From Flavobacteriales bacterium (GTDB lineage: Bacteria; Bacteroidota; Bacteroidia; Flavobacteriales_D; Sanyastnellaceae), in NCBI GenBank assembly GCA_022428285.1, contig JAKMCX010000040.1:1-38753 (forward strand): a stretch of DNA of 38,753 nt, in the 5' to 3' direction. Position 1 is the first letter of the stretch. The number at the start of each line of letters is the position of its first letter. Below the pieces are notes generated by a model. It was not told the origin of the DNA and did no database searches. It worked only from the letters and a program-made list of their open reading frames with translations. A program made the position numbers and the translations under genes. This document shows positions 19,247 through 26,283 of this stretch, one piece after another.

Positions 19247-19273
19247 GCCCCGGCTTTTCTGAACAGGGGCCTA
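19244..19273. terminator. Putative shared hairpin between convergent genes
   Basis: TAAGCCCC (19244-19251) / GGGGCCTA (19266-19273): 7 of 8 pairs, 14-nt loop. Confidence 0.4.
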
Positions 19274-21067
19274 GCATTGAATGCCCACCAAGGTGGCATC
19301 GTCGACTTTGGCGTTGGCCCCTTTCCAAATGAGCAGGTCCTTTTGAATGGCTTTCTCCCGCTGCGCGGAGGGAAGGGTGCTGTGTTTTGCGAGAATGTCG
19401 CACAGTCTTTTCCGGCCCATTTTCCGATTGCGTTCACCGCCGAATTGGTCCCGAATGCCATCTGAAATCATATAGAACTGGTCTCCATCTTGGTAATCCA
19501 ATGTGTGGAGCTTGTATTCGATTGATGGGGCGTTGGGAGAATGCTTGCCCATCAGATCAATGCTGGTTCGAGAGCCTCGTACGGCCATTGTTTCTCTATC
19601 TCTGACCCGAAATAAATCACCTCTAGCGCCAGCAAATTCGATGGTGTTGGTCTCTGGGTCCATGGTCATGATGGCGGCATCAAAGCCGTACATCTGGGGG
19701 GTCCCTTGGTTGACCTGCATCCGGATGTCGAACTCTTTTTGAAAAGACTCCAAAATGGCCGAGGGATTGGAGGATTCCAATGCGGTGAAAGCCTTGTTGA
19801 TCAGCGATGAGCCCATAAGAGAGACCATGGCCCCGGGAATACCGTGCCCTGTGCTGTCAATCAGTGCCAAGGTTTTCTTGCCGTTTTTGACGCCCGTAAA
19901 GAGGAAGTCTCCCCCCATGATGTCTCTGGGGCGGTCGATGAGCAAGGAGTGTGGGAAAATAGAGTTGAGCTCTTCTCTACTGGGCAGGGCGACCTCCATA
20001 ATCCGCTTGGCCCCAATGACACTTTGGGTGATGTGCGCCAGGCTTTCTCTCAACTGTACCGTGAGTTTTTGTCTCTGGGTGCCTTCAGAGGCCAACCTCT
20101 GGTGACTGAGGGCAATGTCTTTGGTGCGTTGCGCAACCCGGTCTTCCAGCAGCTTTAAATTATCGCGCAATTCACCTTCGAGTTGAACCCGTTGGGAATT
20201 GTCGAGAATGGTCATCAGGAGTAGGTTGTCTTTTTCCGATGCGATGCTGATGCCTATGGACAGGTGTTTCTGATTTCCAAGCTCGGTCGTGTATTGGACT
20301 TCTTCATGGATCAGGTTCACGGCAGTACCCAATTGGCCCAAGGACTCCAAGAATTGTTGAGGGTTTGAAGGCTTGAGCTTTTTGAGGAATTGGTTGGACA
20401 AAGAGACCGGCTCTTTGAGTTCTAGCAGTTGGGTGGACTCTTTATTGTTGAGTTCCCAAATCACATGTGAAAGCAATGTGTCACCCAGTGTCAAGGTTTC
20501 CAGCTTTTCTGGTGCTGGCAAGGCCGCTGAGGTCTTTCGCAGTGCACCGAGGAAAAGCCGCGCCTGTCCAGTCAGCATGCCGGCACCTGACCTTTCAAAC
20601 AGAGATTGCCACAACTGCATCTCTTCCTGAATCAGCCTGAATGAGAGTGTGTTGAGTGGCTGATCTTTAGAGGAATGAGAGAGTTTGGCCACCCGTTTTT
20701 GCAGCAATGCCTCATGGCTTTGGAAGTCGTGAAAATCAGACGCAGGAAGCGCCAGGAAACCATCGATGTCGGTTCGCTTGGTATCCAGGATGAGGATGAC
20801 GGGGACACCGGGGTGTCTTTGGGACAGGTTTTTCAGTTGAAGCTTTGCTTCAGTTGAGGTGCCTGTGGCCTCGAGTAGGATGACTTTGGAACTGTTGCTG
20901 TCATCCTCAGCAAGAATGATGGCCTGAGCCTGCGTTTTCGACGGTAGGGCTTGGTTTTTACCTGATCTGGGACTGACCTTGTCCAAGTCTGGTTGGATAG
21001 AGTAGGTCGCTCCTAGGCTTTCCGAAATATTGATTCGGGTTCTCTTCCTGTAACGAGCTAACATCAC
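19271..21067 (-). CDS. SpoIIE-type PP2C-family phosphatase with receiver-like degenerate N-terminal region
   Basis: 'DRPRDIMGGDFLFTGVKNGKKTLALIDSTGHGIPGAMVSLMGSSLINKAF...GDQFYMISDGIRDQFGG...VDDATLVGIQC'. Confidence 0.9.
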   Translation of the reverse strand: MMLARYRKRTRINISESLGATYSIQPDLDKVSPRSGKNQALPSKTQAQAIILAEDDSNSSKVILLEATGTSTEAKLQLKNLSQRHPGVPVILILDTKRTDIDGFLALPASDFHDFQSHEALLQKRVAKLSHSSKDQPLNTLSFRLIQEEMQLWQSLFERSGAGMLTGQARLFLGALRKTSAALPAPEKLETLTLGDTLLSHVIWELNNKESTQLLELKEPVSLSNQFLKKLKPSNPQQFLESLGQLGTAVNLIHEEVQYTTELGNQKHLSIGISIASEKDNLLLMTILDNSQRVQLEGELRDNLKLLEDRVAQRTKDIALSHQRLASEGTQRQKLTVQLRESLAHITQSVIGAKRIMEVALPSREELNSIFPHSLLIDRPRDIMGGDFLFTGVKNGKKTLALIDSTGHGIPGAMVSLMGSSLINKAFTALESSNPSAILESFQKEFDIRMQVNQGTPQMYGFDAAIMTMDPETNTIEFAGARGDLFRVRDRETMAVRGSRTSIDLMGKHSPNAPSIEYKLHTLDYQDGDQFYMISDGIRDQFGGERNRKMGRKRLCDILAKHSTLPSAQREKAIQKDLLIWKGANAKVDDATLVGIQC

Positions 21068-21145
21068 TTAAAGATGGAGAGCGATGCGGGCTCACCTTGT
21101 CATCTTGACCACCCTAGATGGGGTGGGATTCCTCCGGGGCGGTTG

Positions 21146-21814
21146 TCAGTTTCCTGATTGTCCGGGGTCTGCACCTCCAGGAGCGAGGTCGTGCAGCAAG
21201 ATGTATTTGACCAGGTCGGAATTGCTCTTCAGCCTCATTTTTTCGAGAATGCGGCTCCGGTAAGTACTGACAGTTTTGATGCTCAGGCTCAATTGTGCTG
21301 CGATGTCGGTCATGGATTTCCCTTCCCCAATGAACAGGAGCACCTCATATTCTCTGTCAGACAGGCTCTTGTGCGGAAGATCATTGTCATCCTTGGCCAT
21401 TTCTTCAATCATCAATCGCGTAAGTTCTGCGCTGATGTATTGCTTCCCAGATACGATGGTGCGCATGGCGTCTTCCAAAACATGGGGGGCACTGTCTTTG
21501 TGCAGGTATCCCCGTGCGCCAGCCTTGACCATGCGAATTGCGAATTGATCTTCAGGATACATGCTCAGTGCCAGGACAGCAATTTGAGGATACATCGATT
21601 GGATTTGCTTCAACACCTCGAGTCCACTGCGTCCTGGAAGGCTGATGTCCAAGAGAAGTACGTCCGGGACTTGCTTCATAAAAAGCGGAAACAAGGCCTC
21701 TCCCGACGCCACATCATCCAAGACTTCAAAATCCCCGAAGCCTTCTACTATTTGTCGGAGACCTGCCCGAACAATGTTGTGGTCGTCGCAGAGCACGACA
21801 GTCTTTTTGTCCAT
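21146..21814 (-). CDS. NarL/FixJ (LuxR)-family response regulator
   Basis: REC 'KTVVLCDDHNIVRAGLRQIV...VLLLDISLPGRSGLEVLK' and HTH 'LSDREYEVLLFIGEGKSMTDIAAQLSLSIKTVSTYRSRILEKMRL'. Confidence 0.95.
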   Translation of the reverse strand: MDKKTVVLCDDHNIVRAGLRQIVEGFGDFEVLDDVASGEALFPLFMKQVPDVLLLDISLPGRSGLEVLKQIQSMYPQIAVLALSMYPEDQFAIRMVKAGARGYLHKDSAPHVLEDAMRTIVSGKQYISAELTRLMIEEMAKDDNDLPHKSLSDREYEVLLFIGEGKSMTDIAAQLSLSIKTVSTYRSRILEKMRLKSNSDLVKYILLHDLAPGGADPGQSGN

Positions 21815-21823
21815 AGTGGTAAT

Positions 21824-22984
21824 TTACGAAGAAGCTGAGTTCCTGAATTCGATGACGATAGAGGTTCCCATTTGATTCTTGGACGTTACGTTGAAACTGG
21901 CACCATGGTTTCGTGCCCGTTCGCGCATGCCCACCATGCCTAAGCCCATAGCAGGTTGGCCAGGGATGGTTTCTGAGATGCCGGCACCATCGTCGCCGAT
22001 TTCTAGGATGATGTTGTCTGGATGGACCTTCAGTGATACGTATGCCAGATTGGCTTTCGCATGTCGTGAAATGTTGGTCAGCGCCTCTTGAACGATGCGA
22101 AATATATCGGTCCGGAGGCTTTCAGTGAGGTTGGGGAGCGGATCGAGATTCAGGCCACAAAACGTTTGTTCTCTCCGATTGAAATCGTGAACCAGGGTTT
22201 CAAGACCAGCCGAAAGTCCAACTTGGTCCAAAACCACAGGACGCAGCGTATGGGCAATGTTCCTCACCTCACCGATAATGGATGTGTTGAGGCTGATCAG
22301 TTGCTCAATTTTCTGGGTAATGTTCGGAAGCTCAAGGTCGGGAGCAAGCTTCCGGATTTGATTGTCTATCCAGTAGAGGCCCAGTTTGAGGGCTGTCAAT
22401 TCTTGGCCGAGTTGGTCGTGAATGTCTCTAGATAGGCTTCTTTTTTCTTCATCGCGTTCCTCGGCGACCCTCTTGATCAACGCCATGAGTTCATCGGTCA
22501 GCCTTTGTCGCTCAATTTCTGACCAAGCGTGCAACGTCTTGGTGCGGAACGTGTCTAACACGGTGTCCAATACCTCGGGAAACAAGTCGAGTTTCCTTTT
22601 TGAGAGGTAGTGGGCCGCACCGGATTTGAGGTATTCCACCGCCAGCTCTTCTTCACCTGCTCCCGTGATGACCATAATGGGGACATCGGGATGTTGCTTC
22701 GAGGCCTCGGTGATCGCGTCATGGGCAGAGCCATCCGGCAGCAAGTGGTCCGCGCAAATCAGATGAGGCTTGTAGTTCCTTAGCGCTTGGGTGAATTCAC
22801 CAATGTTGGCCGCGCGTTGAACGACCAACTCTCGAGAGCATCTGAGGGAGGCCGCTTTGAAGATGGCCGCATCGATGTCGTTGTCCTCTAAGTGCAGGAT
22901 TTGGAGAGGGGCGAGGCTCTCCGGGTCAAGTAGCGGGTTTTCCTTAAAGTCGGGCAGCTGTTTTGGATCGGTGATCCGGGTCAT
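21824..22984 (-). CDS. Soluble histidine kinase with N-terminal receiver domain (REC-HisKA_3-HATPase_c)
   Basis: REC 'LQILHLEDNDIDAAIF...PHLICADHLLPDGSAHDAI...PIMVITGAGEEE...YLSKR'. HisKA_3 'SRDIHDQLGQELTALKLGLYWID'. HATPase 'RIVQEALTNISRHAKA...GDDGAGI...GLGMVGMRERARNHG'. Confidence 0.92.
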   Translation of the reverse strand: MTRITDPKQLPDFKENPLLDPESLAPLQILHLEDNDIDAAIFKAASLRCSRELVVQRAANIGEFTQALRNYKPHLICADHLLPDGSAHDAITEASKQHPDVPIMVITGAGEEELAVEYLKSGAAHYLSKRKLDLFPEVLDTVLDTFRTKTLHAWSEIERQRLTDELMALIKRVAEERDEEKRSLSRDIHDQLGQELTALKLGLYWIDNQIRKLAPDLELPNITQKIEQLISLNTSIIGEVRNIAHTLRPVVLDQVGLSAGLETLVHDFNRREQTFCGLNLDPLPNLTESLRTDIFRIVQEALTNISRHAKANLAYVSLKVHPDNIILEIGDDGAGISETIPGQPAMGLGMVGMRERARNHGASFNVTSKNQMGTSIVIEFRNSASS

Positions 22985-23769
22985 CCCACGATGGAACCAT
23001 AGGTGACCATGAAGCTGCGGTCTCCTTCGAATATGGGGAGTCCGTTTTCGAGAAGTTCGATGGCTTGCGTGCGCTGACCGTCTGCGTCTAGCTGTTCGGA
23101 AGCTCGGATCAATCCCGTCTTGAGCAAGGCCCTCATGGATTCGGTCAAGGGCTCGTCGCGGTACACCTCAGTCTCTTCGGAAGCGGAGATGCGGCCTGTC
23201 ATGCTGCCCATGAGCTGCATGGCTGTTCCCCAATGCTCTGTGGCGTCGCGGGTAGACCGCGCGTAATAGTTGGCCATGCCAAGCATGATGTACGCCGAAG
23301 GGTCTGTTTTGTCCAGCTTTGACAGGTATGCATACAAGCTTTTGGCCCGGGTGTACTTCTCGGCATCCATCTCCGTATCCGCAGCGGCGATGGTTTCTGC
23401 CCTCAAGTCTTCGATGAAGTCCAACAGGTCGGGGACGTACTCGCCTTCTTTGTCTTTCTTGATGAATTTGGTGCAGTACTTCAGGCTTTCTTTCAAAGCC
23501 TTGGGGTAGCTCTCCTTCAGCGCAGGGTCGTCGCTTTGATGGATAAGCAGGTAGGCCCGTGCCATGTAGGCATAGGGTTCAGGATGCTTTTTGGTGGCTT
23601 CCTTCTCTGTATATCCGATGGCACGGAACAAAACGCGCTCGTACTTGCCGTCCACCAAGTCCTCCAACATCCGGTTGTACTTGGGGTCTTGTGCCTGTCC
23701 ATTTGGAAGGGCAAACAACATGGCGAAGAGCAGGGCAAAGAGCCCAGTCAGTTGAACTTTTCCTATCAT
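22981..23769 (-). CDS. Exported helical (TPR-like) protein of unknown function
   Basis: Signal peptide MIGKVQLTGLFALLFAMLFALPNGQAQ; repeated helical segments ('AYMARAYLLIHQ', 'AYIMLGMANYYAR'). ATGA overlap with the kinase start. Confidence 0.75.
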   Translation of the reverse strand: MIGKVQLTGLFALLFAMLFALPNGQAQDPKYNRMLEDLVDGKYERVLFRAIGYTEKEATKKHPEPYAYMARAYLLIHQSDDPALKESYPKALKESLKYCTKFIKKDKEGEYVPDLLDFIEDLRAETIAAADTEMDAEKYTRAKSLYAYLSKLDKTDPSAYIMLGMANYYARSTRDATEHWGTAMQLMGSMTGRISASEETEVYRDEPLTESMRALLKTGLIRASEQLDADGQRTQAIELLENGLPIFEGDRSFMVTYGSIVG

Positions 23770-23817
23770 GTTTCCCGAAGGTAGGAACACAAGGGGCATT
23801 CAGGGGATTATTACAGT

Positions 23818-26283
23818 GTGGAAGACCAGCCAAAATTTCCAACGTCACATTGCTCAAAGCGCAACGAACCCGAGGTGTTTGCGCCGGGAAAGGCGTTTTT
23901 TGGGCAGTTGGGTTGGACGCCATTTCCTTTTCAGAATGCGTCTTGGAACTGGTTTGTCTGCGGTGGCGATGGTTTGGTGAATGCCCCAACAGGGAGCGGG
24001 AAAACCTACAGTGTCTTGGTGCCAGCTGTTCTGGGCGGAGGTCAGCCAGGAGGGCTGAGGGTCTTGTGGATCACCCCGATTCGTGCCCTTGCCAAGGAGA
24101 TACACGGTTCTGCTCTCAAGTTGTTGGCGCAGAGCGATGTGGATTGGAAGTGTGGCATTCGCACAGGGGACACGCCTTCCTCAGAAAAGCAAAAACAGGA
24201 CAGGCGTTTGCCAGAAATATTGGTCACGACACCTGAAAGTCTGCATGTCATGCTGGCCAAAAAAGGCGCCGCAAAACGGTTTGGAGGGGTCGAGGCTTTG
24301 GTGGTCGATGAATGGCACGATTTGTTGGGCAACAAACGCGGGGTCCAAATGGAGCTGGCCGCAGCGGCGCTCAAATCGCATGCGCCGAACATGAGGATTT
24401 GGGGCATTTCTGCCACCATCGGCAACCTCAAAGAAGCCATGCATGTCCTTATGGGTGAGGACAGAAAAGGGCAAGCAAAGATCATCCGCTCTGAACTGGA
24501 CAAGCGCATTCGGCTCGAAAGTGTGATGCCGGAGCGGTTTGAGAAGCTGCCTTGGGCAGGCCACCTGGGGGTCCAGCTGTTGGATCAGGTCGTCGACATC
24601 ATCCGCAGGCATGCGAGCACCTTGGTGTTTACCAACACCCGCGCGCAGAGCGAAATTTGGTATCAGAAAATCATTGCCGCACATCCTGACCTCTCGGGCG
24701 CCGTGGCCTTGCACCACGGAAGCATCAGCAAGGAACTCAGGTTCTGGGTGGAGGATGCCTTGCATGAAGGCCGGCTCAAAGCGGTGATTTGCACCAGTTC
24801 ACTCGACCTCGGTGTGGACTTTCGACCGGTGGAGGCCATTGTTCAAATTGGCGGCCCCAAGGGGGTGGCCCGTTTCGTGCAACGTGCCGGTCGCAGCGGA
24901 CACCAGCCCGGGGCAGAAAGCCAGATTCATTTCCTCCCCACTTTTGGGTTGGAGTTGCTCGAAGCGGCTGCATTGCGCAGTGCCATCGAAGAAGGAGAAA
25001 TCGAGCCCAGGCGTCCCATGGTGCGCGCTTTCGATGTGTTGGTCCAGTTCCTCTGCACCTTGGCTGTCGGAGACGGTTTTCGCAAAGACAGCTTGCACCA
25101 GTTGGTGAAGTCCACGCATGCCTTTGCGGAAATGGATGACGCAGAATGGGAAGATGTCCTGGCCATGGTGACCACCGGGGGCAGAGCCTTTGCAGCCTAT
25201 GACGAGTTTCAGCGAGTGGTGAAGGACGAAGAAGGGGTTTTTCGCATTGTAGACCGAAGGGCGGCCCGGCGGCAGCGCATGTCCATTGGAACCATTGTCG
25301 GAGATACCATGATTGCTGTGAAATGGCGCAGCGGCGGATTGGTTGGCCATGTGGAAGAGTATTTCGTGGGGGGGATGTCTCCCGGCGATGTTTTTTGGTT
25401 CAGCGGCCGTTGTCTAGAGTTGATCCGCGTAAAGGGGTTTATCGCAACGGTGAAGCCTTCCAAGTCGCCCAAAGGCAGGATTCCCACATGGCAAGGCGGC
25501 CGACTCCCTTGGACCTCCATGGTCAGCCGGACGCTGCGCAGAACGTTGGACGATTATGCCCACGGCAGGTCTACCGCCCCTGAGCTGGAGCGCTTGTCCC
25601 CCATGTTGGAGCTTCAGGCTGAACGCAGCCATCTGCCCATTTCTGGCGAGGTGCTCATGGAGGTCATGGAGACCAAGGAAGGGCACCATTTGTTTGTCTA
25701 CCCCATGGAGGGGCGGCTGGTTCACGAGGGGGTGGCCTCCCTCATGGCCTATCGCATGAGTTTGTTGCAGCCCATGACCTTCTCCATGGCCTACAATGAT
25801 TACGGTTTTGAGTTGCTCAGCGACCAGCCCATCCCCATTGCTGAGGCCTTTGACAGTGACCTCTTTAGCACGGAGCACCTCATGGATGATTTAGAGGCGA
25901 CGGTGAATGGCGCTGAGCTTGCACGCCGCCAATTCCGCGACATCGCTGTCATTGCTGGCCTGGTGTTCCGGGGTTTCCCTGGGCAACCTGTCCCGGACCG
26001 ACACCTTCAGGGTTCAAGCGCGCTTTTGTTTGACGTGTTGGCGGACCATGACCCTGTGAACTTGCTGTACCGACAGGCCTTTGACGAAATGACCCACCAT
26101 CTGATTGAAATGGACCGGTTGCGCGATGTGCTGGACCGTTTGAACGCAGGCAAATGGGTGATCACGCACCCTGAAGCGCCCACGCCATTCTCGTTTCCCA
26201 TCTTGGTCGATAGGCTGCGGTCTAATTTGTCCAGTGAAGCGCTTGAGTCCCGAATTCAACGCATGACCCGTGTCAAGGGGTGA
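23818..26283 (+). CDS. Lhr-like DEXH-box helicase of the 'ligase-associated DNA damage response' type
   Basis: 'GLVNAPTGSGKTYSVLVPAVLGG', 'VDEWHDLLGNKRGVQMELA', 'GISATIGN', 'TSSLDLGVDFRPVEAIVQIGGPKGVARFVQRAGRSGHQPG'. Confidence 0.9.
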   Translation: MEDQPKFPTSHCSKRNEPEVFAPGKAFFGQLGWTPFPFQNASWNWFVCGGDGLVNAPTGSGKTYSVLVPAVLGGGQPGGLRVLWITPIRALAKEIHGSALKLLAQSDVDWKCGIRTGDTPSSEKQKQDRRLPEILVTTPESLHVMLAKKGAAKRFGGVEALVVDEWHDLLGNKRGVQMELAAAALKSHAPNMRIWGISATIGNLKEAMHVLMGEDRKGQAKIIRSELDKRIRLESVMPERFEKLPWAGHLGVQLLDQVVDIIRRHASTLVFTNTRAQSEIWYQKIIAAHPDLSGAVALHHGSISKELRFWVEDALHEGRLKAVICTSSLDLGVDFRPVEAIVQIGGPKGVARFVQRAGRSGHQPGAESQIHFLPTFGLELLEAAALRSAIEEGEIEPRRPMVRAFDVLVQFLCTLAVGDGFRKDSLHQLVKSTHAFAEMDDAEWEDVLAMVTTGGRAFAAYDEFQRVVKDEEGVFRIVDRRAARRQRMSIGTIVGDTMIAVKWRSGGLVGHVEEYFVGGMSPGDVFWFSGRCLELIRVKGFIATVKPSKSPKGRIPTWQGGRLPWTSMVSRTLRRTLDDYAHGRSTAPELERLSPMLELQAERSHLPISGEVLMEVMETKEGHHLFVYPMEGRLVHEGVASLMAYRMSLLQPMTFSMAYNDYGFELLSDQPIPIAEAFDSDLFSTEHLMDDLEATVNGAELARRQFRDIAVIAGLVFRGFPGQPVPDRHLQGSSALLFDVLADHDPVNLLYRQAFDEMTHHLIEMDRLRDVLDRLNAGKWVITHPEAPTPFSFPILVDRLRSNLSSEALESRIQRMTRVKG

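Follow-up and report, generated by a model that had tools for sequence, protein, structure and literature searches.

The locus described here shares parts with several described systems. SiaABCD of Pseudomonas aeruginosa is a threonine-phosphorylation partner switch (PMC7647112, PMC8457831). Its phosphatase, SiaA, has a membrane/HAMP sensor and the active-site residues D457, D474, G477, D600, G601 and D653 (PMC7647112), and its output is the GGDEF protein SiaD. In HsbR/CrsR, a receiver is joined to a PP2C phosphatase and a fused anti-sigma kinase domain, and HsbR is phosphorylated by HptB (PMC6482189). ExsG provides a precedent for a soluble REC-histidine kinase, in which phosphorylation of the receiver inhibits kinase activity (PMC3899027). 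NarX/UhpB-type kinases have a membrane sensor and a HisKA_3 and HATPase_c core, and act with NarL-type regulators.

We analysed a stretch of 38,753 nucleotides (the window), which is contig C34 of an uncultured marine-type Flavobacteriales genome (2.69 Mb, 90% complete) whose close relatives include the MAGs UBA1995 and TMED114. Four genes lie together on its minus strand, and their layout as first read from the sequence, with an ATGA overlap and gaps of 9 bp and 78 bp, was exact when the open reading frames were checked again. The features are as follows:

23770 to 23840, minus strand: block upstream of the exported-protein gene, kept across the genus; its end, TTCCTACCTT, directly adjoins the start of that gene, and on inspection it looks like a promoter
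22981 to 23769, minus strand: TPR-like exported protein, 262 aa, with an N-terminal signal-peptide-like stretch (the longest open reading frame starts at 23799)
21824 to 22984, minus strand: soluble REC-HisKA_3-HATPase_c kinase, 386 aa, with receiver Asp79 and phospho-accepting His189
22595 to 22900, minus strand: kinase receiver domain, intact (aa 29-130)
21146 to 21814, minus strand: NarL/LuxR-type response regulator (REC and GerE), 222 aa, with Asp56
21122 to 21135, minus strand: GGANRAATCCCACC-like element directly 3' of the regulator stop, kept in most genus members
19271 to 21064 (or 21067), minus strand: SiaA-like PP2C/SpoIIE phosphatase with a decayed receiver, a PAS-like region and a coiled coil
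20660 to 20929, minus strand: decayed receiver of the phosphatase (aa ~46-135), phospho-Asp gone, REC matches weak
19274 to 19987, minus strand: PP2C/SpoIIE catalytic domain of the phosphatase (aa ~360-597)

Domain searches identified Response_reg, HisKA_3 and HATPase_c in the kinase, Response_reg and GerE in the regulator, SpoIIE in the phosphatase and only a weak TPR match in the exported protein. This bears out the domains named in the sequence-only reading, although its description of the phosphatase had missed the decayed receiver and the PAS-like region that precede SpoIIE.

We read this locus, with a probability of roughly 55%, as a reduced two-branch operon of known parts, in which the kinase acts on the NarL regulator and an unlinked site encodes the SiaC protein that the phosphatase resets. 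In the first branch, the soluble kinase would phosphorylate the adjoining regulator, which would then control genes. As in NarX/UhpB-type systems, a HisKA_3 and HATPase_c kinase with its His is encoded alongside a REC-GerE regulator with its Asp. No ortholog lacks the phospho-accepting His, and the region around Asp56 of the regulator is invariant among orthologs. Phosphotransfer from kinase to regulator is the most likely relation between the two. Unlike the NarX/UhpB-type kinases with their membrane sensor, the window kinase has a receiver as input, which retains the acidic pair, Asp79, Thr and Lys. That the kinase is soluble and that this intact receiver is its only recognisable input, as proposed from the sequence, is supported here. 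The state of the receiver would depend on a further kinase or on a binding event, as in ExsG, which likewise has an N-terminal receiver and no membrane segment. ExsG has neighbouring single receivers, and a lone Rcp1-like receiver adjoins the kinase in sister genera and in family f5. The two differ in the kinase core (HWE in ExsG, HisKA_3 here) and in the partner, which here is a NarL DNA-binding regulator, and no phytochrome was seen at the locus.

To follow the locus through the genus, we compared 16 genomes besides the window genome (17 in all). All four genes occur in the same order in 12 of these 16, which are all of those with contigs covering the four genes. The locus in these 12 is flanked by the same helicase and oxidoreductase genes, with a few of the loci at contig edges. 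The locus is interrupted by contig ends in G004, G009 and G015, and in G013 the gene set is kept with the catalytic domain of the phosphatase deleted. The neighbourhood survey suggested in the sequence-only reading came out in favour of a conserved multi-gene signalling operon, both in gene order and in tight spacing. Regulator identity is ~87-98% across most of the genus, falling to 75% in the most distant of the fully covered members, and phosphatase identity is 38-68%. The stop of the exported-protein gene overlaps the start of the kinase gene by 1-4 bp in nearly all orthologs, which, together with the conserved block before the exported-protein gene, fits one operon and suggests that the four genes are co-transcribed. 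A promoter scan gave a result near chance and a search for structured RNA found none. The GGANRAATCCCACC-like element is no commoner in the genome than its control, and was rejected as a genome-wide regulator site on this ground. At L086/L056 (G016:C28), the reading frame of the kinase falls into several pieces, and as the adjacent TonB-type and RecN genes on that contig are also split, assembly errors are likely.

The phosphatase is a SiaA-class PP2C protein. Among NCBIfam models, SiaA alone matched (127 bits, E 8e-37, C-terminal part only), and as this score is far under the equivalog cut-off of 700 bits, with the N-terminal sensor part unmatched, it supports membership of the class and not orthology. 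SiaA was also the only PDB sequence match and the best match in a fold search (6k4e, E 2e-18, TM 0.86 on target). All six active-site residues of SiaA have equivalents in the window protein: D386, D403, G406, D535, G536 and D588. Unlike SiaA, the window phosphatase has no membrane/HAMP sensor, with a decayed receiver and PAS-like region in its place, and it does not share an operon with SiaB/SiaC, which are encoded elsewhere.

In the second branch, this phosphatase would dephosphorylate a SiaC-type protein encoded elsewhere, opposing kinases of the SiaB family. SiaC (DUF1987) was found in 14 of the 17 genus genomes, where its phospho-Thr68 position (cf. PMC7647112) is retained and its gene adjoins a SiaB-like kinase gene. 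The genomes in which no SiaC match was found are the window genome, G001 and G003. In the first two, the ABC gene that flanks SiaC stops at a contig edge, which points to an assembly gap; real absence from the window genome was judged improbable, as its contig ends within this flanking gene. A second SiaB-family kinase is encoded on contig C119 of the window genome (95.4 bits, curated cut-off 85), and in sister genera SiaA-like phosphatases adjoin SiaC/SiaB. We consider SiaC the most likely target of the phosphatase. The earlier expectation that the partners of the phosphatase lie outside the window holds, whereas their identification as a STAS protein and an anti-sigma kinase is probably wrong: as the phosphatase is SiaA-class, SiaC and SiaB are likelier. 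Against this stands a second SiaA-like phosphatase in the genome (HAMP type, contig C145, 206 bits), which could be the main partner of SiaC. None of the 17 genus genomes encodes a GGDEF protein, so there is no counterpart to the SiaD output known from Pseudomonas, and c-di-GMP was rejected as output. Elsewhere, a compact set of SiaC, SpoIIE phosphatase and SiaB-like gene was seen at L118 9117-11682 (G021:C8). Across the family, the SiaC and SiaB-like kinase genes adjoin the gene for an ABC protein of ~1000 aa (L110 7052-10960, and L107, L113, L114, L116 and L121); this transporter protein (ABC_tran and ABC2_membrane) is a possible SiaC target.

Of 20 other genera sampled in the family, 6 have a fuller block at the same place. 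Besides the exported TPR protein and a lone Rcp1-like receiver, this block encodes a REC-PAS-HisKA_3 kinase, a pair of NarL regulators and a phosphatase of REC-PAS-SpoIIE layout whose receiver is intact. Compared with these sister genera, the window genus lacks the lone receiver, the PAS domain of the kinase and one regulator, and the receiver of its phosphatase has decayed. We infer that the version in the window genus is a reduction of the fuller block, rather than that the others were enlarged. At the phospho-Asp position, the genus phosphatases have Glu, Lys, Thr, Gly or His, depending on the genome. A phosphomimetic role for Glu was considered and rejected, as Glu is limited to the window and one close relative. 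In a profile comparison, the N-terminus of the genus phosphatases aligned with the REC-PAS region of the sister genera (265 columns, probability 90%). In a tree of catalytic domains, the genus phosphatases form a long branch that does not join the cassette phosphatases of the sister genera, which leaves place and N-terminal profile as the grounds for their orthology. As the receiver has decayed, control of the phosphatase in the window genus is probably exerted via the PAS-like region or via protein abundance, and the phosphatase would be tied to the first branch mainly through shared expression.

These observations bear on the branched phosphorelay proposed in the sequence-only reading, in which the kinase of the window organism would phosphorylate both the regulator and the phosphatase. 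That logic fits the sister genera, which have the kinase, two regulators and an intact receiver on the phosphatase; there, the phosphatase could be a further substrate of the kinase, just as HsbR, a REC-PP2C regulator of the same logic, is a substrate of HptB (PMC6482189). In the window genus, the receiver Asp is variously replaced and the domain is barely recognisable, which makes such a relay very improbable in this organism; the link from kinase to phosphatase has probably been lost. The sister-genus phosphatases resemble HsbR/CrsR in joining a receiver to a PP2C domain. The window protein differs from it by the decayed receiver, by the lack of a fused anti-sigma kinase domain and by a partner that is likely of SiaC type rather than STAS. 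STAS proteins are nonetheless common substrates of SpoIIE-family phosphatases (PMC9239204), which counts for a classical RsbU-like arrangement. Here the phosphatase would act on a STAS protein and oppose an RsbW-like kinase, and hence control a sigma factor or other target. The genome search that the earlier reading had suggested did recover a stand-alone STAS protein (contig C209), which passes the anti-sigma antagonist cut-off, and an RsbW-like protein (contig C220). Both are unlinked to the locus, and no STAS linkage was seen in the related loci examined. The RsbU-RsbV-RsbW system is defined by an RsbU-class phosphatase with linked STAS and anti-sigma kinase genes, a combination that was not found. 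Moreover, the window phosphatase falls with SiaA and apart from a GAF-SpoIIE paralog (contig C36); this paralog does not match SiaA and is the better candidate for acting on STAS. We therefore rejected STAS/RsbW as prime partner, and regard the RsbU-like arrangement as distinctly unlikely.

The four genes could also be loose neighbours, that is, a kinase-regulator pair, a resident exported-protein gene and an independent phosphatase that share no circuit. The exported protein speaks for this. It is predicted to be an alpha-solenoid (pLDDT 89, 13 helices) and matches TPR folds, and it is found in 293 of 399 genomes of the order, nearly always as a single copy (e.g., L098-L102 and L163-L172). 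Nine of the family's sampled genera have it at the same place with no signalling genes beside it, and outside the family its gene lies at other loci, often near trmD/rplS. We therefore rejected the earlier idea that it is a specific, dedicated member of the cassette; in the two-branch reading, it is a long-established resident gene that has come to stand first in the operon. In family f5, genes for a PAS kinase, a REC-HisKA_3 kinase and a NarL regulator come after the exported protein (L162 841-5542 in G040, where it lies beside trmD/rplS-like genes, and L180 358-5383 in G051). A lone receiver was called in L162 only, and neither block has a phosphatase. This repeated pairing with kinase blocks at different loci in two families is suggestive. 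The phosphatase also fits this reading: it evolves fast (against ~90% identity for the regulator), has lost its receiver and is absent from the f5 blocks. As the genus member without the catalytic domain keeps the rest of the locus, the phosphatase is separable. In that genome (L088 11557-12588, SP3009), the homolog stops after the coiled coil and the match of the next gene starts ~125 bp on. Against loose neighbours, order and tight spacing are kept throughout the genus, and sister genera keep the fuller form with an intact phosphatase receiver. We thus hold this explanation to be unlikely, and suggest that the kinase block and the phosphatase act together in the reduced two-branch operon.

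The locus had been put forward as an undescribed system. Each of its parts belongs to a known family, whereas their combination is new; a literature search of incomplete coverage found no description of the four-gene set. Possibly, and we propose this tentatively, one circuit joins a two-component system to a SiaC-type threonine switch in Flavobacteriales without diguanylate cyclases. The sister-genus kinase would feed the lone receiver, its own receiver, both NarL regulators and a REC-PAS-SiaA phosphatase, and the window genus would represent a stepwise dismantling of this circuit. If this is true, the target of SiaC cannot be a diguanylate cyclase. The locus points to SiaABC-like switches in bacteria that lack these enzymes. 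Its versions, whether fuller, reduced or without the phosphatase, offer a natural series on the joining and uncoupling of histidine-aspartate and threonine signalling. Among the related sequences, CAMCHP010000036.1 (L091) is titled Chryseobacterium gleum; its gene order groups with this family, and it is probably mislabelled.
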